NCBI RefSeq assembly: GCF_000018865.1
Contig: NC_010175.1
Coordinates: forward strand, 3,038,001 to 3,102,000
From: Chloroflexus aurantiacus J-10-fl
Lineage (GTDB): Bacteria > Chloroflexota > Chloroflexia > Chloroflexales > Chloroflexaceae
Length of the DNA stretch: 64,000 nt
Reading direction: 5' to 3'
Part shown: in pieces, positions 20,224 to 61,596 of the stretch
How positions within the stretch are numbered: position 1 is the first letter of the stretch
Layout: the number at the start of each line of letters is the position of its first letter
Translations under genes and position numbers: made by a program
The notes under the pieces: generated by a model
What the model was told of the DNA's origin: nothing
The model's database searches: none
What the model saw: the letters and a program-made list of their open reading frames with translations, nothing else

Positions 20224-20708
20224 TGATCGGCGTGCGTACACGCTCTCGCCAATGAAGGCAGGGCGGGTAGCAGCGGCACAGGCTGTAGCGCCTGGGGTGC
20301 AACCACGGATTGAATGTCGTCAAACCCATAGCCAGATGTACTGGTGATCGGCGTGCGTACACGCTCTCGCCAATGAAGGCAGGGCGGGTAGCAGCGGCAC
20401 AGGCTGTAGCGCCTGGGGTGCAACCACGGGTTGAATGTCGTTACACCCATAGCCAGATGTACTGGTGATCGGCGTGCGTACACGCTTTCGTCTGTGAAGG
20501 CAGGACGGGTAGCAGCGGCGCAGGCTGTAGCGCCTGGGGTGCAACCACGGGTTGAATGCCGTCAAGCCCATAGCCAGATGTACTGGTGATCGGCGTGCGT
20601 ACACGCTCTCGCCAATGAAGGCAGGACGGGTAGCAGCGGCGCAGGCTGTAGCGCCTGGGGTGCAACCACGGATTGAATGTCGTCAAATCCATATCCGGTG
20701 GAGTTGTT
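20224..20708. repeat. four tandem copies of a 121-122 bp unit
   Basis: The landmark GATCGGCGTGCGTACACGCT recurs at 20224, 20346, 20467 and 20588, giving periods of 122, 121 and 121. Copies differ at only a few positions. Each unit junction carries GATGTACTGGTGATCGG. This nearly equals the start of the following amine oxidase gene (GATGTACTGGTGATTGG, from about 20715), so one end of the unit probably derives from that gene's 5' end. Minus-strand frames through the array repeat the same peptide and are by-products. Confidence 0.9.
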
Positions 20709-37256: not shown

Positions 37257-37980
37257 TGATAACACCGACGATGGTCGTCAAGGCACGTTTAATGCTCGTG
37301 CGAGATGCTCTTCACCTTGCCGGCATCGGCAGCAATGCGTGCGGCCGTCAGGGTCAACAGCGTGCCACGTGCCTGGCACGAAGCACGGCTGGTGCGGCAG
37401 CATGGCTGCCGCACTCCAAACGCTACGACACGCGCATAACGAGCGGGTAAGGCAACCAATCCAGTGCGTGATGACACCGACGATGGTTGTCAATGCACGT
37501 TTAATGCTCGTGCGAGATGCTCTTCACCTTGCCGGCATCGGCAGCAATGCGTGTGGCCGGCAGGGTCAACAGCGTGCCACGCGCCTGGCACGAAGCACGG
37601 CTGTGCGGCAGCATGGCTGCCGCACTCCAAACGCTGCGACACGCGCATAACGAGCGGGTAAGGCAACCAATCCAGTGCGTGATGACACCGACGATGGTTG
37701 TCAATGCACGTTTAATGCTCGTGCGAGATGCTCTTCACCTTGCCGGCATCGGCAGCAATGCGTGTGGCCGGCAGGGTCAACAGCGTGCCACGCGCCTGGC
37801 ACGAAGCACGGCTGGTGCGGCAGCATGGCTGCCGCACTCCAAACGCTGCGACACGCGCATAACGAGCGGGTAAGGCAACCAATCCAGTGCGTGATGACAC
37901 CGATGATGGTCGTCAATGCACGTTTAATGCTCGTGCGAGATGCTCTTCACCTTGCCGGCATCGGCAGCAATGCGTGCGGC
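37257..37980. repeat. 212-bp tandem array that includes the end of the oppF-like gene
   Basis: Three full copies of a 211-212-base unit and a partial fourth. The landmark CGATGGT recurs at 37269, 37481 and 37692, and as TGATGGT at 37904. Bases 37924-37980 of the last copy are the stop and final 18 codons of the minus-strand ATPase gene, so each upstream copy carries a duplicated gene end. Every unit also contains the GCGGCAGCATGGCTGCCGC hairpin module found in elements at 17.9 and 62.9 kb. Confidence 0.9.
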
Positions 37981-48491: not shown

Positions 48492-49493
48492 ATGAGTCAT
48501 ACCCGTCCGCCGATTGCCGTTGTCATTCCAACCTATCACGCACTACGCTTTCTTCCGGCATGCCTGAGCGCTATCCAGGCTCAAATGCTTCCCCACGATG
48601 AGATCGTGCTGGTTGACAATCGTTCGCGTGATCGGGCCGGGGATTGGGTACGCAGCTATTTTCCGACCGTCCGCGTCATTGCATTGCCGTACAACGCCGG
48701 CTTTGCCGGTGGGGTCAATGCAGGGATTGCGGCAACCCAGACCGATCTGATAATGCTGATCAATGACGATGCGTTGGCTGAGCCGGGTTGTGTTGATGCG
48801 CTCTGGGCAGCCCTGCGTGATCATCCGCAGGCGGGATGGGCAGCGGGAGTGTTGACCTTCAGCCGCCGGCCACAGATCGTTGCCGGTGCCGGGATTCGGT
48901 TCCACGCCGATGGGATTGCTACCGACTATGCCCTTGGTATGGCTGTAACCCAACTGCCGACCAATCCTCAACCCATCTTCGGTGCCAGTGGCGGGCTTGC
49001 CCTGCTACGGCGGACGATGATCACCGATACCGGCCTGTTTGCCGATTTCTTCAGTTACCTGGAAGATGCCGATCTGGCCTGGCGCGCCCGTCTGCGGGGC
49101 TGGGAGTGTGTGCTGGCCCCTACCGCCCGTGCCCGCCATGTCTACTCGGCGACTGCCGGCATGTTCAGCCCGCTCAAACAGCGCCTGCTGGGCCGCAACC
49201 GGCTGCGCATGGTGATCCGCTGCCTGCCCACGCCACTCCTCCTTGCCTGCCTGCCGTCGATCCTGGCCTACGACGTGCTGGCGGTCACCTATGCCGTGCT
49301 GCGTCGGCAACCCGACATGCTGGCCGGCAGACTCATGGCGCTGGCTGAATGGCCACAGCTTCTGCACCAGCGCCGACACATTCAAGCGCGCCGCACGGCA
49401 CCGCTCGGTGAACTGGCACGCTGGATCGAACCGCCGCTGGGTCTCGTCGGTACGTGGCGGGTGCGGCGGCAGTTGGGGGGAGGGAGGAGATAG
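48492..49493 (+). CDS. glycosyltransferase family 2 protein
   Basis: 333 residues, GT-A fold. The N-terminal strand IAVVIPTYHALRFLPACLSAIQAQ leads to VLVDNRSRDRAGDWV, and the metal-binding DxD equivalent is LIMLINDDALAEPG. FGASGGLALLRRTMI and YLEDADLAWRARLRGW (the ED catalytic loop) follow. This matches rhamnosyltransferase-like members that build cell-surface polysaccharide. C-terminal hydrophobic stretch (PLLLACLPSILAYDVLAVTYAVL) suggests membrane association. Its stop codon already lies within the start of the GATAGGA tandem repeat. Confidence 0.92.
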   Translation: MSHTRPPIAVVIPTYHALRFLPACLSAIQAQMLPHDEIVLVDNRSRDRAGDWVRSYFPTVRVIALPYNAGFAGGVNAGIAATQTDLIMLINDDALAEPGCVDALWAALRDHPQAGWAAGVLTFSRRPQIVAGAGIRFHADGIATDYALGMAVTQLPTNPQPIFGASGGLALLRRTMITDTGLFADFFSYLEDADLAWRARLRGWECVLAPTARARHVYSATAGMFSPLKQRLLGRNRLRMVIRCLPTPLLLACLPSILAYDVLAVTYAVLRRQPDMLAGRLMALAEWPQLLHQRRHIQARRTAPLGELARWIEPPLGLVGTWRVRRQLGGGRR

Positions 49494-49640
49494 GAGATAG
49501 AAGATAGGAGATAGGAGATAGGAGATAGGGGATAGGAGATAGGAGATAGGGGATAGGAGATAGGGGATAGGAGATAGGGGATAGGGGATAGGAGAGAGAT
49601 TAGGAGAGAGATTAGGAGAGAGGAGGGAGGGGAGAGGAGT
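49487..49640. repeat. GATAGGA/GATAGGG heptad tandem repeat and purine-rich tract
   Basis: About fifteen 7-base units (GGAGATA, GGGGATA variants) run from 49487 to about 49593 and continue as a purine-rich GAGAGATTAG tract to about 49640. One strand is almost free of C throughout. The GT2 stop codon is TAG from the first units. No gene is supported in the rest of 49641-49817. Confidence 0.9.
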
Positions 49641-49817: not shown

Positions 49818-50972
49818 CTAATCAAGCACAACCTGGATACTATTGCCGGGGCGATAATCCTCGCATCGACTAAAGATAATGACGCTGTTAGGATTGAGTT
49901 GTGGCTGAATAACTGCCAGCCACGGATGTTCATGGTAGGTTACGATCAGGCTGGTGAGCAGCCAGAAGGGCAATTTACCGCTCACTACTACTCCCCGTTG
50001 TGGATCAAGCCGCGGCACCGTCAGGGCAGACAAATCATCGTAATCGAGATACGGTTCTAACAGATGTGCTTTCAGCAGGGTATAATCCTGCTCTTCTCTG
50101 GTCTGCCAGCGAATAACATCAGCCACAGGTTGTGGCACACGCCGCAGGGATTGGGCCTGCGCCCAACCGAGCCGGGGATCGAAGAGGGAGAATGGCGCAG
50201 GGGCAGTGTGGCCTGCCAGTGCTGCATAGAGCCAGTTTGGGCCACGTCCATAGATAGCAAGGGGCGTTTTTGCCGGAATACTATCCAGAATCTGTGGAAG
50301 ATCAGGTGGTATCCATCTACGCTGCGTGGCCTCTACCCACATCTGCCTGGCAAGCCGATCAAGATCAACCACGAGTTCCGCAGGCGCTCGCTGCAAATGC
50401 TGCTGTACCAGTTCAGCCTGGTCGTAATGCATCAGGCGGGCAAGCCGGTTGGCCAATGCCTCTACTACTATCCCACCGGTCGGGGCATTCCGTTCAAGAC
50501 CACTAATCACCCCACGCAGCACCGGTTTTTCAACCTCAATCTGATCGCTCCCGTGCAATTCTGAGTGCAATTCTGCAACAATAATCAATCCATATTGCTC
50601 AACACGGTTACGCCATTCGTCCATTCCCTGCGGGGTGGCTGAAAGTACAATGGCGTGTGTGCACCTCTGGATAATCCGTTCCTGATCGAGCGTAGGCCGT
50701 CCTCCTACATCCACCAGCAGCGGCAAATGGCGCTGTTCTATATCGCGACAAACCCGATCAACAAACGTCCGATCAAATGCCCCTTTCTGCCGTAGCAAGC
50801 GCACCAGATCGGGTGTTGACTCCTGGCTCCAGTCACCTTCACCATCAGGACATGCACGCAAAACATAATGTTCGATGCCTCGCTGACGAAGGTACTGCGT
50901 GAGCAGGTACGTCAAAACAGATTTGCCGCTGTGTGGAGGGCCGCCGATCAGCACTGCAGGAAACGTGTTCAT
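49818..50972 (-). CDS. csx3: AAA ATPase-Csx3 fusion protein (CRISPR ancillary)
   Basis: 384 residues from ATG 50972. The N-terminal P-loop (VLIGGPPHSGKSVLTYLL) begins an ATPase-like domain of about 190 residues. After a linker, the C-terminal 90 residues (GVVVSGKLPFWLLTSLIVTYHEHPWLAVIQPQLNPNSVIIFSRC) match Csx3, a ring nuclease (Crn3) that degrades cyclic tetra-adenylate made by Cas10; Csx3-AAA fusions are a known arrangement. The conserved His of Csx3 sits in YHEHPW. It is transcribed away from the effector operon, with only 67 bases between the two starts. It is expected to switch off or tune the signal. Confidence 0.88.
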   Translation of the reverse strand: MNTFPAVLIGGPPHSGKSVLTYLLTQYLRQRGIEHYVLRACPDGEGDWSQESTPDLVRLLRQKGAFDRTFVDRVCRDIEQRHLPLLVDVGGRPTLDQERIIQRCTHAIVLSATPQGMDEWRNRVEQYGLIIVAELHSELHGSDQIEVEKPVLRGVISGLERNAPTGGIVVEALANRLARLMHYDQAELVQQHLQRAPAELVVDLDRLARQMWVEATQRRWIPPDLPQILDSIPAKTPLAIYGRGPNWLYAALAGHTAPAPFSLFDPRLGWAQAQSLRRVPQPVADVIRWQTREEQDYTLLKAHLLEPYLDYDDLSALTVPRLDPQRGVVVSGKLPFWLLTSLIVTYHEHPWLAVIQPQLNPNSVIIFSRCEDYRPGNSIQVVLD

Positions 50973-51002
50973 CTTTCCATCCAAACCCAAAGAATGATGC
51001 TA

Positions 51003-51023
51003 CAATAATCAACATCATTATTG
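51003..51023. promoter_or_regulatory. dyad CAATAAT-N7-ATTATTG between csx3 and CARF-HTH genes
   Basis: CAATAAT (51003-51009) and ATTATTG (51017-51023) are perfect inverted halves centred in the 67-base divergent gap. A wider AATGATG...CATCATT pair (50993-50999 and about 51013-51019) overlaps it. LuxR-type HTH proteins bind dyads of this size, so this is a candidate operator for the CARF-LuxR protein beside it. Confidence 0.5.
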
Positions 51024-51039
51024 CCGATATTTAATAGAT

Positions 51040-51924
51040 ATGCCAGACATTGTTTTGCCAACAGACCCATCGGCTGTGCTTGTAGCCACCCTCGGTGGAC
51101 AACCGCAAGTTGTCACCTTTGCTCTGGATGCGCTCCTCGCCCGCGGTGAACCCATTCAGGAAGTCTACATCCTTCACCTTGCACTCACCAACGAACGCAC
51201 CCGTCAGGCTTGGCAGCGGCTACAACGAGAATTTGTCGATGATTACTACGCTGGTCGACGTTGTCGGCTGCGGCAAGTACCTATTGGTGCAAACGGTAGC
51301 GAATTAACCGACATCCGTACCACAACCGATGTCGAAATCGCCTTTCAGGCCATTCGCCAACTCATCGTTGATCTGAAAACGAACGGACGACGGCTCCATC
51401 TCTGCCTGAGTGGTGGTCGGCGCATGATGGCGCTCCTGGCAACCTCAATTGCAGCACTCTACTGTGACCACCAGGATCGACTCTGGCATATGCACACCCC
51501 CGAAACCACGTTACAGCGTGTCAAAGACGGTGCCCAGATGCACGTTCAGCCCGCAGATGGGGTGTCACTGATTCAGATTCCGCTCACACCCTGGGGAGCC
51601 TACTTTCCCGGCCTCCGCCTGCTGGCCCAACCCGACTCTCGCTCGATCCAAGATCAGCTACAACGCTTCCTTAGTGACGATCCACGCTGTCAGCAGGTCT
51701 GGGATCGTCTCACAACCCGCCAGCGCGATGTCTTGCGAGCGTTTGCGAAGGGATTACGTCCGGATCAGGTTGCCGATCAGCTCTCGATCTCATTGAGCAC
51801 CGTGAATTCCCACAAAACCGCCATCCTGGCAGAATGCCGCATTGCCTGGCATATCTCCGATGCAGAATCCCTCGACTACCGGTTTCTCCGCGATCACTTT
51901 GCCGGCTTCGTGGAACGAGTATAG
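51040..51924 (+). CDS. CARF-domain protein (NE0113/Csm6-ring-nuclease type) fused to a LuxR-type HTH
   Basis: 294 residues. Residues about 10-200 are the CRISPR-associated NE0113-like family: VLVATLGGQPQVVTFALDALLARGEP, EVYILHLAL, LHLCLSGGRRMMALLATSIAALY. This is a Rossmann-type cyclic oligoadenylate sensor or ring-nuclease fold. Residues about 228-275 form a GerE/LuxR helix-turn-helix: LTTRQRDVLRAFAKGLRPDQVADQLSISLSTVNSHKTAIL. The combination predicts a transcription factor that reads the second messenger made by Cas10. It opens the plus-strand CRISPR cluster; an imperfect stem-loop (51941-51963) with a T-run follows, so the main operon may have its own promoter. Confidence 0.85.
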   Translation: MPDIVLPTDPSAVLVATLGGQPQVVTFALDALLARGEPIQEVYILHLALTNERTRQAWQRLQREFVDDYYAGRRCRLRQVPIGANGSELTDIRTTTDVEIAFQAIRQLIVDLKTNGRRLHLCLSGGRRMMALLATSIAALYCDHQDRLWHMHTPETTLQRVKDGAQMHVQPADGVSLIQIPLTPWGAYFPGLRLLAQPDSRSIQDQLQRFLSDDPRCQQVWDRLTTRQRDVLRAFAKGLRPDQVADQLSISLSTVNSHKTAILAECRIAWHISDAESLDYRFLRDHFAGFVERV

Positions 51925-52064: not shown

Positions 52065-53336
52065 GTGACAACTCAACCTGCCATTCAGGATCGTTATAAG
52101 AGCGATCATTTGTTTTTGCTGGTCGGTACCAACCCCTTGCCAAATTTCGTAGCAGCGACGCTCATGTTAAGGTCGCAGGGGCAACTCTATCTGGTTCACT
52201 CCGACAAAACCAGGACTGTGGCAGAACGTCTGGCGCGCTACTGGGCTGAACATCACCGGCAACCGCAGTTTGTATGTGTCAATGAGTCGGATGGTGCTGA
52301 CATTCGCCGGCACATTGAGCATGCGCTGAAACACATTGGAGACAAGCACGTTGGTCTCAACTATACGGGTGGCACCAAAATGATGGCGGTGCACGCAACT
52401 CAGGTGATACGAGACTACCAGAAACCCCAACGACCGGTAACCTTGAGTTATCTGGACGCACGCACGAACAGGATGTATATCGAGCATGGTAATGAGCCGG
52501 CGTTTATGACTGAGCCGTTGCTCTACGAAGTGCAACCCTCTATTCAGGACATTGTCAAATTGCATGCGTTCAGGCTTCAAGACTCGATTGCCAGGGCAGT
52601 GCAGCTTTCCGAACTGGCTACCGTTCTTGCCGGCGTTCACCAAAACCCTGATGCAATTAAGGCGTGGCGAACGTGGTGCGACGAGGTTTTGCGCAAAAAC
52701 ACCCGTACCCAGAAATTCCACGAATGGGATAAGGAAAACCGGCTTCAAAACCTGCACATTGAGTTGCCGACAGATAAATCTCTGGAAACGGTCGCCAGGC
52801 AGATGAGTACCTCTTTTGCCACGAGTGACAGTAACTTTCGACTGCTAGAGGCAACGAAACGGTCTGGTTTTGCGAGGATCAAACACCTGTGTGAATGGCT
52901 GGACGGTAAGTGGCTGGAACACTATGTATTCGATGTTTTGAGCCAGATACGCGCGCAGCGACCTGAAAGTCGAATCCATGACATCGGTATGGGCATCCGT
53001 CCGCAGAGCGAATCGGACAGTCCGGAATACGACATTGATATAGGCGTGATGCAGGGATACAGGCTCTACGCCATTTCATGCACAACCGACACGAATCCCG
53101 GAATGTGCAAACTGAAACTCTTTGAAGCGTATATCCGCGCCCGTAATATGGCCGGCGATGAGGCGTGTGTGGGTCTGGTCTGCATGGTAGATACACCCGA
53201 AAACCTGCAACGCCAGATTGTACGCTCGTGGGATGCGGAAGGCAAGGTGCGCGTGTTTGGCCGTCGGGATATGCCAGATCTGATCAACCGTATGGCCGAG
53301 TGGTTTCTCATCACAGGGGAAGGAAGGCACGCATGA
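52065..53336 (+). CDS. Card1/Can2-like CARF-nuclease fold protein
   Basis: About 423 residues from GTG 52065; ATGs at 51990 and 52011 and a GTG at 51978 are alternatives, but they lie in low-complexity G-rich DNA. The N-terminal CARF domain has the ligand-loop LLVGTNPLPNFVAATLM and the NYTGGTKMMAVHA motif. A helical middle leads to a C-terminal restriction-endonuclease-like fold (WLEHYVFDVL at about 283, YDIDIGVMQGYRLYAISCTT at about 322-341). Card1/Can2 effectors cut DNA or RNA when bound to cyclic tetra-adenylate. Here the usual E-x-K reads S-C-T, so catalysis may be altered. It overlaps cas10 by ATGA. Confidence 0.85.
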   Translation: MTTQPAIQDRYKSDHLFLLVGTNPLPNFVAATLMLRSQGQLYLVHSDKTRTVAERLARYWAEHHRQPQFVCVNESDGADIRRHIEHALKHIGDKHVGLNYTGGTKMMAVHATQVIRDYQKPQRPVTLSYLDARTNRMYIEHGNEPAFMTEPLLYEVQPSIQDIVKLHAFRLQDSIARAVQLSELATVLAGVHQNPDAIKAWRTWCDEVLRKNTRTQKFHEWDKENRLQNLHIELPTDKSLETVARQMSTSFATSDSNFRLLEATKRSGFARIKHLCEWLDGKWLEHYVFDVLSQIRAQRPESRIHDIGMGIRPQSESDSPEYDIDIGVMQGYRLYAISCTTDTNPGMCKLKLFEAYIRARNMAGDEACVGLVCMVDTPENLQRQIVRSWDAEGKVRVFGRRDMPDLINRMAEWFLITGEGRHA

Positions 53337-54955
53337 CCGAATATATTCTGACCGCTATCGATACCACCCAAATCCAGGGGTATATCTTTGGCAGCAACAG
53401 GCTGCAAGAGAATATCGGCGGTTCTGAGCTGGTCGAACGGGCAACGCATCAATGGGTGTACGAGGCGCTCCCTGCTGCTCACAACGTGGTGGATGTGGCT
53501 ACAGGCAAACTTGATAATAACCGTACCATCGACACCCTGGACGCAGAGGTTATCTACGCTGGTGGTGGCAATACGGTGATCCTGTTCAAGACCATGGATC
53601 TGGCACGCGCATTTACTAGTCGATGGACGCGGCGGGTTCTGCGCGAAGCCCCTGGTCTGGAAGTTGTAGTGGCGCACCGTCGTTTTGATTGGACGAAGGA
53701 AGCCCTATCACAGGTTGTCAGTACGACGTTAGGTGTTGATCTGGCGCGCAAAAAACATCATCGGACTCCCTCAATGCCACTGCTGGGGCTGGGTGTGACG
53801 GTGCCTTGCGCTTCGACCGGACTGGTCGCATCCCGAATCGTTGAAAAAAAGCCGGTATCGCTGGAAATCAGGGCAAAAAGTGATGCAAAGGTCCAAAATC
53901 AGAGTGTGGAACGCCTGAAAGCCAGATTGCCGCAGATAGAGCAGGGAAACTGGGAAATTCCGCGCGATTTTGATGATTTAGGTCGAGTTAAGGGTGAAGA
54001 AAGTTATATTGCGGTTGTTCATGCTGATGGTAATGGGATTGGGCGGCGGGTGGAAGCCATTGCCCGTCGCTACGGCACCCCTCAGCAGAACCGGGCGTAT
54101 ATTGAAGCAATCCGCAACTTCTCGCACAGTCTTGAGCACGCTGCTACTCAGGCTCTGAATAGCGTCGTTGACCTGATGGCAGCAGCCTTTATTGCCGACG
54201 ATGAACTTGCCAACCGTCATCGCCAGAAATTTCCTATTCGTCCCATCGTGTTTGGTGGTGATGATGTGACGTTTGTCTGCCACGGCAGTTACGGTCTATC
54301 ACTGGCAGTGCGTTATCTGGAAGCATTTGAGGCTGCAACGAAAAATGAACCGGCTTTCGAGGGTAAACCAGCGTATGCATGTGCCGGCGTCGCCATTGTC
54401 AAGACGCACTATCCTTTTGCCCGTGCCTACCGTTTAAGTGAGCAGCTCTGCCGTTCCGCCAAACAGATGCTCAAACAGGCAGGGATCGATGGCTCGGCCC
54501 TGGACTGGCACATCGCAATGAGTGGTATTACCGGTTCGTTAGATGAGATTCGTCTGCGTGAATACACGATCAGGCGCGGCTCGCTCTCTATGCGTCCGGT
54601 ATTGCTTGACGATTCTAAACAAACCTGGCGTAGCTGGCCGGTCTTCAAAACGTTGCTGGACCAATTCATCGATGAACACGGCGAATGGTTTGACCGCCGC
54701 AATAAAGTGAAAAGCCTCCGCGAAGCCTTACGTGCAGGACCTGACAAAGTACGGGAATTTCTCCATACATATCAACTCGGGCAACTGCCCGTTTCCCATT
54801 CGCTCAATGTTTTGGGTTACGAACAAAGCGGTTGGGCAGGTGATCGTTGCGTGTACTTTGACGCCATTGAGATGATGGATTTTTTTGTAGACCTGCAAAA
54901 GATCGTTGCGGATTCTCTCGGGGAACAGGAGGAGGCCGCACATGCCGGCGTATAA
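53333..54955 (+). CDS. cas10: type III Cas10 subunit without HD domain, GGDD cyclase motif intact
   Basis: 540 residues, much shorter than the 750-900 of HD-containing Cas10. The N-terminus (MTEYILTAIDTTQIQGYIFGSNRLQENIGGSELVE) is the Cas10 palm entry. Two palm parts follow: VVHADGNGIG at about 226-235 and the catalytic GGDD at about 308-311 (IVFGGDDVTFVCHG). The last 130 residues are helical (domain D4-like). No HD nuclease motif is present. GGDD predicts synthesis of cyclic oligoadenylates from ATP when target RNA is bound. Those feed the CARF proteins encoded just upstream. The start overlaps the previous stop as ATGA. Confidence 0.92.
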   Translation: MTEYILTAIDTTQIQGYIFGSNRLQENIGGSELVERATHQWVYEALPAAHNVVDVATGKLDNNRTIDTLDAEVIYAGGGNTVILFKTMDLARAFTSRWTRRVLREAPGLEVVVAHRRFDWTKEALSQVVSTTLGVDLARKKHHRTPSMPLLGLGVTVPCASTGLVASRIVEKKPVSLEIRAKSDAKVQNQSVERLKARLPQIEQGNWEIPRDFDDLGRVKGEESYIAVVHADGNGIGRRVEAIARRYGTPQQNRAYIEAIRNFSHSLEHAATQALNSVVDLMAAAFIADDELANRHRQKFPIRPIVFGGDDVTFVCHGSYGLSLAVRYLEAFEAATKNEPAFEGKPAYACAGVAIVKTHYPFARAYRLSEQLCRSAKQMLKQAGIDGSALDWHIAMSGITGSLDEIRLREYTIRRGSLSMRPVLLDDSKQTWRSWPVFKTLLDQFIDEHGEWFDRRNKVKSLREALRAGPDKVREFLHTYQLGQLPVSHSLNVLGYEQSGWAGDRCVYFDAIEMMDFFVDLQKIVADSLGEQEEAAHAGV

Positions 54956-55604
54956 ACTTCAATTCGATCTGCGTTCTGCCGCTACCTTTGGGCGTGGTGA
55001 TGGTGTTGCCGGTCTGGTCGACGAAGAGGTAGAGCACGATGCTGATGGATTACCATTTTTGCGTGGCCGCACGTTGAAAGGCTTGCTGGCGGAAGAGTGT
55101 GCCAACATTCTGTACGCCCTTGGGGTACAGCAGCGTGCCGACCAATGGCGTCAGACGGCTTATCGTCTGTTTGGATGTCCAGGGAGCACTATCGCAGACA
55201 CCGGGATGCTTCGAGTTAGCGATGCGCGTCTGCCTGATGCGCTGCGGACTGCTATCAAGATGGCAGTACGCAATGGTGAGTTGTCGGCTGATGAGGTTCT
55301 GGAATCGCTGACGGCCATTCGTCGCCAGACCTCGATGAATGAGTACGGCGCTCCTGAACGAGGTAGCCTGCGCTCGCTGCGCGTTGTGTTGCCTGGTACG
55401 ATGTTTGAAGCGACCCTTGAGTTTGCGGCAGAGCCAGATGCGCAAACACTGGCACTGCTGGTAGCCTGCATTCTGGCGTGGCGACGTGCCGGCACTGGGC
55501 GTAATCGAGGGCGCGGTCGCCTGCAAGCACGGTTGATTGACAGCGACGGTGTAGACATTACTGAGCGGTACTTTCGCGTGTTTGCCGGGGAGGTGGGACA
55601 ATGA
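54942..55604 (+). CDS. RAMP (Cas7-like, Csm3/Cmr4 type) subunit
   Basis: 220 residues from ATG 54942, set by GGAGGAGG seven bases upstream; it overlaps the end of cas10 by 14 bases. Cas7 fold features are visible: DLRSAATFGRGDGVAGLVDEEVEHDADGLPFLRGRTLKGLLAEEC and the C-terminal glycine-rich GRNRGRGRLQARL loop. Asp27 (in GLVDEEV) aligns with the RNA-cutting Asp of Csm3, so it should cleave target RNA in the backbone of the complex. ATGA overlap with csx10 follows. Confidence 0.85.
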   Translation: MPAYKLQFDLRSAATFGRGDGVAGLVDEEVEHDADGLPFLRGRTLKGLLAEECANILYALGVQQRADQWRQTAYRLFGCPGSTIADTGMLRVSDARLPDALRTAIKMAVRNGELSADEVLESLTAIRRQTSMNEYGAPERGSLRSLRVVLPGTMFEATLEFAAEPDAQTLALLVACILAWRRAGTGRNRGRGRLQARLIDSDGVDITERYFRVFAGEVGQ

Positions 55605-57229
55605 ACATCATACCCTACCGTGTGACATTACTGGAACCGCTACTGGCGACACGCATTGCTGGCGATCCTAACAGTGGTGTCTCCTATCCGTATGTGCCCG
55701 GCAGTCTGGTGCGTGGTGCAGCAGTAGCTATGTATGCGCGGAACAAGGGCATCGTTGCCGTTGATGCGCGTGAAGAGGAAGCCCGACGCCTCTTCTTCGA
55801 TGGACGCACCCGCTACCTCAACGCCTATCCTGCCGATGCCAGCGGCAGAAGAACACTCCCAACACCTCGATCATTATTCCATGTCGAGGGTGAGGAGTCG
55901 CCTATCTATGACTTTGCGCTTGAGGTTATCGATGCCGTGAATGAGGAGACGGTACAGTTTGTCGGGGCGGCAAGGGACTCGCAACCTTTCTGTCGGATAG
56001 ACGATAGCAATATCTTCTTCATATCCCCGAAACGCCGCATCAATGTGCATACGCAGCGTGATCGTGTAAAAGGTCGTGCGACCGAAGTGAGTGGTGCCGT
56101 TTTTCAGTACGATGCGCTGGAAGAGGGGCAAACATTTGCCGGTTGGGTTCTGGTTGATAAAGATGACGACGTTGAACTGCTGTCCTCACTGCTCCGACAC
56201 ATCTATCGTCTTGGTGGATCGAGTAACAGCGGCTATGGACGGGTTACCGTTGCAGTGGATGCACCACAGAATATTCAGGTGTGGCGAGAGATACCCAAAC
56301 AGATCGTCCCAATCGATGCCGGCGAGACGTTCGTTGTCACCCTGTTAAGCGACACTCTGGTACGCGATCCGAATACCGGTCAATATACCTGGGATCTGCG
56401 ACCGGCACTGCAACAATTGCTCAGCGTCGAAATTGAGCACATTCACCCGATTGCCGGCGAGGAAGAGCAGCGCAGCGTCTGGCGACTGGATGAAGTGGGT
56501 GGGTTCAATCGCGCTTGGGGCTTACCGTTACCACAAGCACAGGCAATTGCCGGGGGCAGCGTCTTTGTCTTTCGCGCCAGATCACCCATCCCGGCCCAAA
56601 CTATTGCCGGTGCTGAATGGGATGGTATTGGCGAGCGACGGGCTGAGGGTTTTGGTCGTCTCGCATTCAACTGGCAGACTGAGACGGAGCTGATCAGAGT
56701 GGATCCTCCGGTGGTGAGTCTGATTGATCAACTAGTGCCGAACCTTGATGGCCCGGCACGCAATATTGCACAGCAGATGGCTATGCGTATGTTGCGTCGA
56801 GAGCTGGATGCTAAACTTCGCAAGGCAATCAACGATATTCGCCCCAAACATCTATCCATTTCTAATACTCAGCTATCAAGATTGCGGATTATCGCCCGCG
56901 AAGCGTTACCCAACGGCGATCTCGCACGGTTGCAGAAATATCTGGACGAGAACATTAAAACACGGCGTTCGGTCAGAGATCAGTTTGACCGAACACGTCT
57001 CGGTTCGGAGGAACGGCTGTCGCAATGGCTGGAAGAGCGTCTGAGTCAGCCAGAGACCGTCTGGGACAAGATCGGTGCTCAGACTCTATCCAAACGCATC
57101 GGTGCCAATGTGCTGGTTAGTACCAGGGACGATACAGAGTTGGCCCGTGAGTACACGATCCGCCTGATCGACGGTGTTCTCGCCAGACTGGCAAAAGAGC
57201 GCCGCAGGGAAGATGGAGGCCGTCAATGA
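55601..57229 (+). CDS. csx10: Csx10 (Cas5-like RAMP of type III-D) with long helical C-terminus
   Basis: 542 residues. The N-terminal RAMP part reads MNIIPYRVTLLEPLLATRIAGDPNSGVSYPYVPGSLVRGAAVAMY, typical of Csx10, the Cas5-like subunit that caps the crRNA 5' end in type III-D. A second glycine-rich region (GGSSNSGYGRVTV) closes a RAMP fold. From about residue 365 the protein is predicted all-helical (NIAQQMAMRMLRRELDAKLRKAIND and so on to the end), which is a good size for a fused Cas11-like small subunit. No separate small-subunit gene exists here. Coupled by ATGA overlaps on both sides. Confidence 0.87.
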   Translation: MNIIPYRVTLLEPLLATRIAGDPNSGVSYPYVPGSLVRGAAVAMYARNKGIVAVDAREEEARRLFFDGRTRYLNAYPADASGRRTLPTPRSLFHVEGEESPIYDFALEVIDAVNEETVQFVGAARDSQPFCRIDDSNIFFISPKRRINVHTQRDRVKGRATEVSGAVFQYDALEEGQTFAGWVLVDKDDDVELLSSLLRHIYRLGGSSNSGYGRVTVAVDAPQNIQVWREIPKQIVPIDAGETFVVTLLSDTLVRDPNTGQYTWDLRPALQQLLSVEIEHIHPIAGEEEQRSVWRLDEVGGFNRAWGLPLPQAQAIAGGSVFVFRARSPIPAQTIAGAEWDGIGERRAEGFGRLAFNWQTETELIRVDPPVVSLIDQLVPNLDGPARNIAQQMAMRMLRRELDAKLRKAINDIRPKHLSISNTQLSRLRIIAREALPNGDLARLQKYLDENIKTRRSVRDQFDRTRLGSEERLSQWLEERLSQPETVWDKIGAQTLSKRIGANVLVSTRDDTELAREYTIRLIDGVLARLAKERRREDGGRQ

Positions 57230-58701
57230 GTACGCATCCCCTGGCAACATCTCGCCAGATCAGCGAACGCTGGATCATCGAGGGTGATCTGGTGTTGCAG
57301 ACCCCAACCCACCTGGGCAATGGTGATACTGATGGCATTGTGGATATGCCACTGTTGCTGGACGAAGTGACCGGAAAAGCACTGCTACCGGGCACGTCGC
57401 TGGCGGGTGCGCTGCGCAACTATTTATATGAGCGCTGCCACGGTTTTGAGAAACAGGCATCGGACCCATGGATTGAAGCGCTTTTCGGTGGGCAGAAGGG
57501 CAACGACGATGGTGATCAGAGCGCATTGATTATCGATGATGCCCTGGGTGAGGCATCAAAGATCGAGCTGCGTGATGGGGTGCGCATTGATCCGATAACG
57601 CGCACTGCGAAAGTTGATTTCGATAATGGTGTTCCGCGTGGTTACAAGTACGATCTTCAGCTCCTGGAAGCCGGTACGACTTTCCCTATTCGGATGGAAC
57701 TGCTTCTCAGTCAGGGTAACAATCAGCAGCAGGTAAAACAAATGCTTGTCCTCGCTCTTCAGGGGCTTGAGGCAGGTGAGATAGCCATCGGGCTACGGAA
57801 GCGACGCGGTTTTGGCGTGTGTCGGGTTACGCAATGGCGTGTTACCCGTTACGATCTCACAAAGCCTGCCGGTTTGCTGGCCTGGTTAGCAGAAGATCAT
57901 CCTGACTGGAAATACGCCACCGGTAGTGAACGGCGATCTGGTCAGAGCATTGCCGGTCTCCTGAATGTGACTCTCGCGGATAGTAGCGACAAGCGTAGCT
58001 TTTGCCGGATTCGGGCACAGTTCGTCGTTGACGGTTCCATCCTGATCCGTGCCGGGTTCGATGAACAGGATCGTGGCCCGGATACCGTACACCTGCATAG
58101 CGCCCGGCCAGGTGGAACACGCAAGCCGGTTCTTTCAGGTACCAGCCTGGCGGGCGCGTTACGCCATCGTGCCGGGCGCATTCTGCGCACAATTGCCGAT
58201 GATAAGCAGGCCCAGACCATGATTGACAGTATCTTCGGCCCTGCCGAGATCACTGGCGACAAAAAACAAAAGGCTCGCTCCAGTCGCCTCGTTGTCAACG
58301 AAACGGTGATCGAGAACCCGGTGAATCTGGTACAGAACCGTATTCGCATTGACCGTTTTACCGGCAGCGTCCATGGAACGGGTTTATTCAATGAACAGCC
58401 GGTCTTTGGTAAGAACGACACCCTTGTCACCGTTGATCTGACGCTCCGCAACCCTGAAAATGCCGAAATCGGATTGTTGCTGTTACTGCTCAAAGATCTG
58501 TGGACCGGTGACTTACCGCTGGGAGGTGAAGCCGGCATCGGTCGCGGACGATTGAAGGGTGTAAGTGCAGAGATTGAAACACCGCAGCACAAAGGTAAGC
58601 CACTCACAATCAGCCTTGCAGACGGCAAACGTCTGATTCCGAGTGACCGTGATGCTCTTGAGCATTACGTTGCAGCCTTGCACGCGGAGGTAAAGCGATG
58701 A
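57226..58701 (+). CDS. double Cas7 (RAMP-RAMP) fusion, Cas7-2x type
   Basis: 491 residues with two Cas7-like repeats. Repeat 1 (about 15-215): LVLQTPTHLGNGDTDGIVDMPLLLDEVTGKALLPGTSLAGALR, with Asp40 in IVDMP at the Csm3 catalytic position, and a GLRKRRGFGVCRV glycine loop. Repeat 2 (about 255-460): GSILIRAGFDEQDRGPDTVHLHS...PVLSGTSLAGALRHR, then GGEAGIGRGRLKGV. In repeat 2 the Asp-x-Pro context is lost, so this half may hold RNA without cutting. Tandem Cas7 subunits are known from type III-Dv complexes. Stop overlaps csx19 start (ATGA). Confidence 0.86.
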   Translation: MSTHPLATSRQISERWIIEGDLVLQTPTHLGNGDTDGIVDMPLLLDEVTGKALLPGTSLAGALRNYLYERCHGFEKQASDPWIEALFGGQKGNDDGDQSALIIDDALGEASKIELRDGVRIDPITRTAKVDFDNGVPRGYKYDLQLLEAGTTFPIRMELLLSQGNNQQQVKQMLVLALQGLEAGEIAIGLRKRRGFGVCRVTQWRVTRYDLTKPAGLLAWLAEDHPDWKYATGSERRSGQSIAGLLNVTLADSSDKRSFCRIRAQFVVDGSILIRAGFDEQDRGPDTVHLHSARPGGTRKPVLSGTSLAGALRHRAGRILRTIADDKQAQTMIDSIFGPAEITGDKKQKARSSRLVVNETVIENPVNLVQNRIRIDRFTGSVHGTGLFNEQPVFGKNDTLVTVDLTLRNPENAEIGLLLLLLKDLWTGDLPLGGEAGIGRGRLKGVSAEIETPQHKGKPLTISLADGKRLIPSDRDALEHYVAALHAEVKR

Positions 58702-59258
58702 CGAAGATCTCCTACCAGCTTACCGGTGTTCCTGTGGACGATGAATTCAACACCGATCCGGCTGCCTGGATGGTGAAACATGCGCAGCAGTATAACCTGC
58801 GCTACCTGCTCGCCCATGCCGACGACGGCGTGATCTGGGGTCGTATCGATAATAGTGAGCTGCATACGTCGCATGGCATCGCTCCGGCATCTCCATCGCT
58901 ACATCCCTCAACCCTGCAACAGGCGCGCCTGTTCAGCCCGGCGGGAGAGCTGTTGCTCTGGCGCGACGATAATGGCTGGCGCGCCCGCCTGGTTGTCGAT
59001 GTTCCGGGTAACGATGATGACATCATTGACGAAGATCAGATTCTGTGGGGTGATACCGTGGACGCCACCTCGAACGGTTTCACGCTATTGCGTGAGGGGT
59101 CTCAGGGTATGCGTCACGCAGTTCCGATTGTTGTAACGCCCACACAGCTCAAGCACCACCAGCTACGCTTGCGCGTGCGTCACTACATCAGCGAAAACGA
59201 GGACGGCGAAGCCAGCATTACGCTGAGCCGTCTGGTTCAGCTTCTGCCGGAAGCATAA
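58698..59258 (+). CDS. csx19: Csx19 (TIGR03984 family CRISPR-associated protein)
   Basis: 186 residues. The conserved block YLLAHADDGVIWGRIDNSEL (about 36-55) and the C-terminal RHYISENEDGEASITLSRLV are hallmarks of this small type III-D-specific family. In the type III-Dv complex Csx19 is a structural subunit near Cas10. The mid-part (LRYLLAHADDGVIWG to TLLREGSQGMRHAVPI) is beta-rich. Start is fixed by the 4-base overlap with the previous gene. An AAGGAGATTCTT leader (10 bases) separates it from the following gene. Confidence 0.87.
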   Translation: MTKISYQLTGVPVDDEFNTDPAAWMVKHAQQYNLRYLLAHADDGVIWGRIDNSELHTSHGIAPASPSLHPSTLQQARLFSPAGELLLWRDDNGWRARLVVDVPGNDDDIIDEDQILWGDTVDATSNGFTLLREGSQGMRHAVPIVVTPTQLKHHQLRLRVRHYISENEDGEASITLSRLVQLLPEA

Positions 59259-59268
59259 GGAGATTCTT

Positions 59269-61596
59269 ATGAACATTCCCAGGCACGTAAACCCAACCAA
59301 AGAGATTGCCAGAGCACCCTATAATTTTGTGCCGCTGCCGGAGAAGATCGTTACCATCGATCCGGATACGCTGCCGGACCAGGATCGTTACGATCCTGAA
59401 CGGCATAGCGGCACTATTGAGTGTGTGATTACCACCGCTTCGCCGATCTACGTGCGTGCACCGCTGACTCCTGAAGAGTTTGAGCGCCAGGAACGTGGCG
59501 AGGATGATCAGGCGCCCTGGCGTGAACGAGTGCGCAACAAGCCAGATTTCTTCTCCATCGACCCGGATAAAACCCCACGCATTCCGGGCAGCAGTCTGCG
59601 CGGAATGTTACGTCAGCTTGTAGAGATCATCAGCTACAGCAAAGTGCAGTGGGTCTCGGAGCAATTACTGGTTTACCGGGCGGTCGGCGATACCACCACT
59701 CATGGCAAAAAATACCGTGAACGCATCATGCGTGAAGATGAGCAGCGTCCCAATCGCAATAAAAAAATGGCCTGGCACTACACGCCGCTGGTCAGAGCCG
59801 GGTATATTAAGGAAGATCGCGGCGAGTTCTTCATCCGCCCTGCCCGAGAGATCGGTGGAACTACCTTTGCCCGTATTCGGAGCGACAGCATTCCTGCACA
59901 TCTCTCGCAGATTCCTGGTTGCAAGAACGCATCGAAGATCTATTTCCAGACTGGTCCATATGACTACCAGGATGTGCGTGGCGGCTTCCTGCGCATCAAA
60001 TACGCCAGAGTAATCCGGGCCTCGGCCAAGCCAGCCGATGGGCTGATCGAGGGTGCACTGGTGCGGAGCGGACCGATGGCTTCAAAACGCAGTGAGGCTG
60101 TCATCTATCCGCCAGACGATCAGGCTGAACTAATTCGCATCCCTGATGATCTGATTGCAGCGTACAGGGATCAAATCAGCCAGGAGCAGGAAAGCCTGTT
60201 GGGGAAAGGCGGCGTCTTGCGCGACGGCCAACCTGTATTCTATCTGATGGAAAACGGCCAACTCGTTTTCTTTGGTCACACCATGATGATGCGTCTGCCC
60301 TATCAGCATAAGCCAATCAATTTCGTGCCAAACGAGCTACGCCGCGAAGAAGATCTCGATCTTGCCGAAGCGATCTTCGGCTACAGCAAATCCCAGGGTG
60401 AAGGTAAAGCACGTGCCTACGCCAGCCGTATCTTTGTGTGCGATGCGTTGCTCGAGCCGGGTCAGTCCGATATCTGGCTGGCAGCCGAGCCGGTTGTACC
60501 CAAAATCCTGGGCAGTCCCAAGCCAACTACCTTCCAGCACTACCTGACTCAGCGCACACCCGATCCACAGGAACAGGAACGTGACCGCAATGGCAACCCC
60601 AAACTGGTAAGGGAGCGTAATGACTACACCGATCCAACGACAAGTGTTATTCGTGGTCACAAACTCTACTGGCATAAGGGTGAGATTACTGTCGCCGATG
60701 TCCAGGAGGCGCTGGACAAGTTGCATGATGAGCGTGGGCGTGAAAAAGAACACGATACACAACACACACAGATGCGTCCGGTTGCCGCCGGTGTGCGCTT
60801 CCGCTGGCGCATCCACTTCGAGAATCTCTCTATGGAAGAATTAGGTGCGTTGTTGTGGGCCTTGACTTTGCCCGGTGAAGCGGGAAGAGAGTACCGTCAC
60901 AGCATCGGTATGGGTAAACCCTACGGTATGGGCGCTATCAAGATTGATGTTAACCTTCTGCTTGAAAATCGAAAGCAACGTTATCAGCAACTCTTCGATG
61001 GTGAGAACTGGCAGGAAGGGAAGACAACAGCCACAGATCGTATTCCAGCGTTCGTTGATGCATTCGATCTCTTTATTCGCAGCCGGATTGGGGCAGTACA
61101 ACATAAGAGTCTGGTCGAGGTTGAGCGCATTCAAATGTTACTATGCCTGTTGGAATGGCCCGGCCCGGACAAAGCTCTGACACGCTATATGGAGATCGAG
61201 CGCCAGGACCCCAATATCAGACGGGGCAAGATCAATGAATATAAGGATCGTCCGGTTCTGCCCGACCCGCTGCATGTCGATCCCGCCGGTCGAACCCGTT
61301 CATCGCCTGCCAGGCGTCCATCGGCGGCAAAGGGAGCTGAGTTAAGCCGGCCTGCCTCTATTGATGAAGTGAGCGAAGGCATGTATCTGGAAGGCAAAGT
61401 CGTGCGCGTCGAACCAGGCCGGGTCGTGGTTGAGATCCTCGGTCATGAAGCATCAATCACTCGTGATCGTCTGAATCCGCCTGCGCGAGACCTTGCCAAC
61501 ATGGAGGCACGTTTTCCGGTCGGGAAGACCATTCGGGCCTGGGTTGTTGGCTTCAATAAACAGGGACGCCTGCAACTTACTATGAGGAAACAATAA
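59269..61596 (+). CDS. large RAMP (TIGR03986, Cas7-insertion type) with C-terminal S1 domain
   Basis: 775 residues. The N-terminus APYNFVPLPEKIV and the block FFSIDPDKTPRIPGSSLRGMLRQLVEI are signatures of TIGR03986 RAMPs of type III-D. Long insertions separate the RAMP strands, with a final IGMGKPYGMGAIKI glycine loop at about 546. Residues about 705-775 (GMYLEGKVVRVEPGRVVVEILGHEASITRDRL...IRAWVVGFNKQGRLQLTMRK) form an S1-type OB fold that would bind single-stranded RNA. AAGGAG seven bases upstream fixes the ATG. The ATPase remnant begins one base after its stop. Confidence 0.87.
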   Translation: MNIPRHVNPTKEIARAPYNFVPLPEKIVTIDPDTLPDQDRYDPERHSGTIECVITTASPIYVRAPLTPEEFERQERGEDDQAPWRERVRNKPDFFSIDPDKTPRIPGSSLRGMLRQLVEIISYSKVQWVSEQLLVYRAVGDTTTHGKKYRERIMREDEQRPNRNKKMAWHYTPLVRAGYIKEDRGEFFIRPAREIGGTTFARIRSDSIPAHLSQIPGCKNASKIYFQTGPYDYQDVRGGFLRIKYARVIRASAKPADGLIEGALVRSGPMASKRSEAVIYPPDDQAELIRIPDDLIAAYRDQISQEQESLLGKGGVLRDGQPVFYLMENGQLVFFGHTMMMRLPYQHKPINFVPNELRREEDLDLAEAIFGYSKSQGEGKARAYASRIFVCDALLEPGQSDIWLAAEPVVPKILGSPKPTTFQHYLTQRTPDPQEQERDRNGNPKLVRERNDYTDPTTSVIRGHKLYWHKGEITVADVQEALDKLHDERGREKEHDTQHTQMRPVAAGVRFRWRIHFENLSMEELGALLWALTLPGEAGREYRHSIGMGKPYGMGAIKIDVNLLLENRKQRYQQLFDGENWQEGKTTATDRIPAFVDAFDLFIRSRIGAVQHKSLVEVERIQMLLCLLEWPGPDKALTRYMEIERQDPNIRRGKINEYKDRPVLPDPLHVDPAGRTRSSPARRPSAAKGAELSRPASIDEVSEGMYLEGKVVRVEPGRVVVEILGHEASITRDRLNPPARDLANMEARFPVGKTIRAWVVGFNKQGRLQLTMRKQ

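Follow-up and report, generated by a model that had tools for sequence, protein, structure and literature searches.

A putative CARF-LuxR transcription factor paired with csx3-AAA at a type III-D CRISPR locus of Chloroflexus aurantiacus

Organization of the type III-D locus

The DNA analysed here (the window) is a stretch of 64,000 nucleotides from Chloroflexus aurantiacus J-10-fl (NC_010175.1, positions 3,038,001 to 3,102,000). In it, csx3-AAA on the minus strand is followed by the gene of a protein that we call CARF-LuxR, a Card1/Can2-like nuclease gene, cas10 and the remaining III-D genes (Table 1). The joint presence of Cas10, Csx10, Csx19 and Cas7 genes in the window identifies the system as type III-D. 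The frame of the nuclease is open from 51978, with GTG at 52065 as the likely start, and the gene overlaps cas10 by ATGA. The cas10 translation contains an intact GGDD motif and gave no match to an HD domain. A repeat search revealed no CRISPR array in the window or in the following 38 kb, and the cas1 genes of the same genome lie at 0.73, 3.96 and 4.53 Mb, none near the III-D locus; the guide RNAs of this locus must therefore come from elsewhere.

Table 1 Features of the locus in window coordinates.
Feature	Position	Strand	Basis
csx3-AAA: N-terminal P-loop ATPase and two Csx3-like repeats	49818..50972	-	PADLOC C3a67 AAA-Csx3 2.4e-220; PF09620
Divergent intergenic region, 67 bp, predicted regulatory target	50973..51039		Start codons from family conservation
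Extended -10 element TGCTACAAT, for CARF-LuxR gene	50998..51006	+	TGNTAYNAT pattern
Inverted repeat CAATAAT-N7-ATTATTG	51003..51023		Not supported as operator
CARF-LuxR protein, 294 aa	51040..51924	+	Stop-free open frame; PF09623 and PF00196; PADLOC PDLC01855
NE0113-type CARF domain, residues 12-212	51073..51675	+	PF09623; structural match to Sso2081, Cad1-CARF
CARF motif I TLGGQPQVV, residues 17-25	51088..51114	+	Alignment to 7ygh; family residues
CARF motif II LSGGRRMM, residues 123-130	51406..51429	+	Alignment to 7ygh; family residues
LuxR/GerE helix-turn-helix, residues 222-266	51703..51837	+	PF00196; family alignment; pLDDT; NarL profile match
Card1/Can2-like CARF-PD-(D/E)xK nuclease	52065..53336	+	PADLOC CARF4--CARF_PDDEXK 2.8e-149; PF09002, PF23400 weak
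cas10, III-D type	53333..54955	+	PADLOC Cas10d 5.2e-141; PF22335; start codon
Type III-D effector genes, whole block	54906..61596	+	NCBIfam TIGR02674, TIGR03984, TIGR03986; RAMP matches
cas7	54906-55604	+	III-D effector block
csx10	55601-57229	+	III-D effector block
Double cas7	57226-58701	+	III-D effector block
csx19	58698-59258	+	III-D effector block
cas7-S1 fusion	59269-61596	+	III-D effector block

Several other elements lie in the surroundings. A gene for an MmyB-type HTH regulator (PF17765; 62001-62876, plus strand) is found just past the III-D operon. Between a glycosyltransferase-like gene and csx3-AAA is an array of 7-base repeats (49479-49639; GGAGATA type, about 16-23 copies), and longer tandem repeats, 93-97% alike, occupy 20224-20693 (121 bp, 3.9 copies) and 37257-37980 (212 bp, 3.4 copies). 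About 30 kb away in the same genome (contig positions 3121001-3130600), a second type III locus holds cas10, csx10-like and csx19-like genes and a PIN protein, as well as an NE0113 CARF protein (PADLOC CARF5, motif I TLGTAPAV) and a Card1-type CARF protein.

Domain architecture of CARF-LuxR

The first-pass annotation had described the product of 51040-51924, from its motifs, as a CARF sensor fused to a LuxR-type helix-turn-helix (HTH), and profile searches bear this out. In hmmscan, PF09623 (Cas_NE0113) covered residues 21-212 (3.4e-64; 216.9 bits against a curated cut-off of 23) and PF00196 (GerE) covered residues 223-263 (6e-10; 39 bits against 23.5), and the two motifs named at that stage, TLGGQPQVV and LSGGRRMM, indeed occupy residues 17-25 and 123-130. 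The HTH had been called complete; its core is present, but the match spans profile positions 2-42 of 57, the last quarter (the usual fourth-helix region) having diverged. The PADLOC model PDLC01855 (CARF3--CARF) extends over residues 9-293 (1.1e-150). The HTH matches GerE and not the winged-HTH families, and PF22662, the Csa3_N-type CARF, found no match in CARF-LuxR at 0.01 and weak ones in two of 40 relatives. A family profile built from 40 relatives matched both the solved NarL DNA-binding domain (2.4e-9) and the ring nuclease Sso2081 (1.5e-6).

An AlphaFold2 model, built on a four-sequence alignment and of medium confidence in its CARF part, had a mean pLDDT of 72, with about 70-80 in the CARF core and less than 50 in the linker (residues 184-211), which was modelled as disordered. 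The C-terminus was predicted to be a helix-turn-helix, in keeping with the earlier claim, at a pLDDT of at least 90 over most of the HTH (94, 90, 92, 93 and 91 in successive blocks from residue 221 to 270). Searching the PDB with this model using Foldseek returned Sso2081 as the top match, and also Cad1-CARF, Csa3 and LuxR-type response regulators. With a CARF sensor and a DNA-binding HTH both predicted, and both inside a CRISPR locus, the protein falls by architecture into the class of CARF-HTH regulators.

Distribution and conservation of the family

Relatives of CARF-LuxR, matched over most of their length, occur in about 55 of 400 sampled Chloroflexota genomes, roughly one in seven. All 40 relatives that were scanned contain PF09623 and 38 of them GerE (E 0.01 or better). 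Across 58 aligned members, Q23, T26, D30, G126, D146 and H168 of the CARF part are invariant, as is Thr254 of the recognition helix; H46, H120 and H150 are nearly so, H258 is kept in 55 members, and W270, just past the HTH, in 56. The ratio pN/pS among ten close relatives was 0.22 for the HTH, 0.32 for the CARF domain and 0.47 for the linker; at the sequence level, the HTH is under purifying selection. Together, the family alignment and these ratios rule out a one-off fusion or an annotation artefact.

The genomic setting of the family is usually, and not always, that of a type III system. In 42 of 61 places cas10 lies within 1.2-6.9 kb of the CARF-LuxR gene, and the gene directly downstream varies (49 loci), being Cas10 in about 20, CARF-HEPN in about nine and CARF-PDDEXK in about seven. 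At four loci, each in a different genome, the csx3-AAA and CARF-LuxR pair is 190-370 kb from the nearest Cas10 match. At one of these, genes for a CARF-PDDEXK nuclease and Csx15 (3.7e-39) come after CARF-LuxR, an arrangement suggestive of a cassette that stands alone and signals in trans. A distant relative (about 29% identity), whose HTH matches other models (HTH_38) and not GerE, is encoded on two plasmids of Rhodothermus marinus, immediately in front of csm1-5; on one of them, pRMAR01, no csx3-AAA is annotated beside this CARF-HTH gene. No viral homologues of CARF-LuxR were found in phage records (tblastn) or in viral contigs, and a viral structure library gave a weak match only.

The divergent partner csx3-AAA

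The csx3-AAA gene was present in 47 of the 400 genomes, and its association with CARF-LuxR is strict. CARF-LuxR is immediately divergent from it in 48 of 52 match places, and in 48 of the 48 whose upstream side is on the contig; the four unpaired places (three copies) are at contig ends, where the upstream side is cut off. A median of 68 nt separates the two matches. Seen from CARF-LuxR, 48 of its 62 places have csx3-AAA as this partner, and most of those without it belong to the distant group or lie at contig ends. A Mantel test over 48 loci showed that the two proteins diverge in step (r = 0.83 between their pairwise distances; none of 999 permutations as high). At the 16 loci with an alignable cas10, a subset defined by detection with the III-D query, CARF-LuxR distances correlated at 0.88 with csx3-AAA and at 0.55 with cas10. 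This co-divergence, like that with cas10, owes partly to shared species phylogeny.

Foldseek located the AfCsx3 fold inside AAA-Csx3 (TM-score 0.86, normalised to AfCsx3), and we compared its residues with those of Crn3/AfCsx3 (PMC7371418). In the alignment to AfCsx3, repeat 2 of the window protein keeps H60 and lacks H57, D69, R71 and H80, and repeat 1 keeps D69-R71 (FDPRLG) and not the histidines; of the Crn3 histidines, H57 and H80 are missing, and H60 is not conserved in 48 relatives, whereas the D69-R71 face of repeat 1 is kept. Because these catalytic residues are missing or not conserved, ring-nuclease activity of AAA-Csx3 appears doubtful, and degradation of cA4 by this protein is weakened as a candidate off-switch of the locus. 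To judge from its residues, AAA-Csx3 may read rather than clear cA4, possibly as a cA4-reading ATPase.

The intergenic region between the two genes had first been placed at 50991-51039. The start of csx3-AAA is more likely the ATG at 50972, which opens the family-conserved MN.FPA, than the TTG at 50990, and the shared region is therefore about 50973-51039, or 67 bp. In all seven Chloroflexus copies found, an extended -10 promoter element (TGNTAYNAT) precedes the CARF-LuxR start by 38-52 nt; it occurs in none of 31 others, and the chance expectation is about 0.03 per 120 nt. The inverted repeat CAATAAT-N7-ATTATTG was considered as an operator and rejected, since it is not conserved and palindromes in this intergenic region do not exceed shuffles (p 0.32). 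Likewise, no conserved palindromic operator emerged from 38 intergenic regions, whose palindromes did not outscore those of dinucleotide shuffles (mean p 0.64).

Motif residues and alternative readings

Motif I has been treated as a signature of cleaving CARF domains, and in Crn1 (Sso2081) Thr10, Ser11, Arg105 and Lys106 bind or cleave cA4, Ser11 being required (PMC10018336). By alignment, these positions correspond to Gly20, Gln21, Arg127 and Arg128 of CARF-LuxR. None of the 58 members has Ser at position 21, where Q, K, E or N stands instead, and the Lys106 position is Arg in 52. The suggestion that the protein might also degrade the messenger is weakened by this replacement of the Thr10-Ser11 pair by Gly-Gln. 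Since the Thr-Ser pair of motif I is replaced here and its Ser in all 58 members, CARF-LuxR is expected, by analogy, to bind cyclic oligoadenylate without efficient cleavage, as does Csa3a, which binds cA4 and does not cleave it (PMC8699464). H46, H120, D146, H150 and H168 could support another cleavage chemistry.

These residues bear most directly on the possibility, which we rate as unlikely, that CARF-LuxR is mainly a ring nuclease of the Crn1/Csx14 kind that clears cyclic oligoadenylate, its HTH serving dimerisation, localisation or weak regulation. Such a role would agree with Sso2081 as the best fold match and with the matches to the Csx14 (TIGR03642) and NE0113 ring-nuclease profiles, though at 49.8 and 35.5 bits these fall below the cut-offs of 90.35 and 80.65, respectively. 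RefSeq names the Rhodothermus relative a 'CRISPR-associated ring nuclease', and weak ring-nuclease activity is known for the CARF-wHTH protein Sso1393 (PMC8699464). D146 and H168 are invariant, with H46, H120 and H150 nearly so, and the locus is otherwise without an obvious ring nuclease, AAA-Csx3 apparently lacking the Crn3 catalytic residues. The replacement of the Thr-Ser pair by Gly-Gln, the lack of Ser at that position in every member and the Arg at the Lys106 position argue the other way, and strong selection on the HTH would be left unexplained.

Two further alternatives retain DNA binding. CARF-LuxR might be a transcription factor for another ligand (SAM-AMP, or a linear or mixed nucleotide), or might sense through contact with AAA-Csx3; the conserved CARF residues Q23, T26, D30, D146 and H168 differ from those characterised in Crn1, and the pairing and co-divergence fit a physical partnership. 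We regard this as quite improbable: binding of cA4 is known for both CARF and Csx3 domains (PMC7371418, PMC10018336), the neighbouring nuclease is of the cA4-activated Card1/Can2 kind (PMC9704534), and neither CorA nor a SAM-AMP lyase was seen in the locus. The chances seem slimmest for an effector that, once activated by cyclic oligoadenylate, binds DNA broadly and shuts down transcription or replication during infection without promoter specificity. The non-specific DNA binding of Csa3a in vitro (PMC8699464) and the failure to find a conserved operator palindrome in the 38 intergenic regions are consistent with it, but the LuxR-type fold is normally sequence-specific, and local regulators typically have such a fixed divergent position.

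Proposed mechanism and significance

We consider it likely that CARF-LuxR acts in type III CRISPR signalling as a one-component transcription factor responsive to cyclic oligoadenylate. Of the two activities first proposed for the protein, a transcriptional response and degradation of the messenger, the former stands by inference, because its HTH is conserved and under selection, because its gene opens a type III operon whose Cas10 has an intact GGDD, and because the divergent promoter arrangement is conserved; the latter is weakened by the motif I residues. Ligand binding, dimerisation and the DNA target are likewise what we infer, the ligand from family and locus. In the proposed sequence of events, the III-D complex would find its target RNA and Cas10 would make cyclic oligoadenylate, most likely cA4. 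The CARF domains, presumably dimerised as in other CARF proteins, would bind the ring between motifs I and II and would not cleave it efficiently. Binding would alter how the two LuxR-type HTH domains are spaced or oriented and, through this shift, would affect transcription from the 67-bp region, which would drive csx3-AAA in one direction and the operon of CARF-LuxR, the CARF nuclease and cas10 in the other.

Most LuxR/NarL-type regulators are activators, and we therefore lean slightly towards activation of transcription upon ligand binding. A CARF-HTH architecture need not mean ligand-gated DNA binding, because cA4 left the DNA binding of Csa3a, which was non-specific, unchanged in vitro (PMC8699464). 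More tentatively, AAA-Csx3 and CARF-LuxR could form a fixed back-to-back cassette that has persisted throughout the evolution of Chloroflexota and been combined with various type III modules. In some genomes it would stand apart, over 190 kb away from any detected Cas10 and accompanied by no more than a CARF nuclease and Csx15. Such a cassette would turn cyclic oligoadenylate into a transcriptional programme, with AAA-Csx3 as a cA4-reading ATPase that is the partner or the target of the regulator; we hold this to be possible rather than probable.

To our knowledge, few transcription-acting outputs of type III systems have been characterised, namely Csa3 in archaea and the CalpL-CalpS sigma-factor route in bacteria. 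As read from its domains and its surroundings, CARF-LuxR probably senses the type III alarm molecule and switches nearby defence genes through its LuxR-type domain. If so, a bacterial type III system could use the messenger it produces to adjust its own expression, and the 67-bp divergent region is predicted to be a small promoter target of this regulation. The widespread family and its strict pairing with csx3-AAA go beyond the first-pass annotation, and 'ring nuclease' names for proteins of this family are probably misleading.

Comparison with known systems

The Csa3 and NE0113 families were predicted to regulate transcription in 2014 by Makarova (PMC4012209), and transcriptional regulators appear among the outputs of type III systems named in the 2025 classification (PMC12669027). 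In the literature apart from the main 2020 CARF classification, we found no description of a LuxR-type HTH on a CARF domain or of the pairing with csx3-AAA, and a search joining CARF, Chloroflexus and type III returned nothing. The family is already in a database, as the PADLOC model PDLC01855, one of two CARF3--CARF models (with PDLC01851), spans residues 9-293; the model name gives CARF only and specifies neither a function nor the type of HTH.

Among characterised proteins, the ring nucleases Crn1/Csx14 (Sso2081, Sis0455) have the same CARF fold, motif I (TLG..P) and motif II (GGR), whereas CARF-LuxR is without the catalytic Thr-Ser pair, carries an additional HTH and scores below the Csx14 cut-off. 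The CARF domain of Cad1, which has been solved with cA4 and cA6 (PDB titles), is structurally close, but there the effector domain is an adenosine deaminase. The DNA-binding domain is shared with LuxR/NarL-type regulators such as NarL, VraR and EL222 by profile, fold and key residues; their sensors are receiver, PAS or autoinducer domains in place of CARF, and the fourth-helix region of CARF-LuxR has diverged.

The closest parallel is Csa3, the archaeal CARF-winged-HTH protein of type I-A/III loci, which likewise combines an N-terminal CARF with a C-terminal HTH in a CRISPR locus, is matched by Foldseek (2wte, 6wxq) and, as Csa3a, does not cleave cA4 (PMC8699464). CARF-LuxR differs in having a LuxR/GerE rather than a winged HTH and a PF09623 rather than a Csa3_N CARF, and in being bacterial and linked to type III operons and csx3-AAA. 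On the best reading of this comparison, CARF-LuxR would be a counterpart of archaeal Csa3 in which a LuxR-type domain takes the role of the winged helix.
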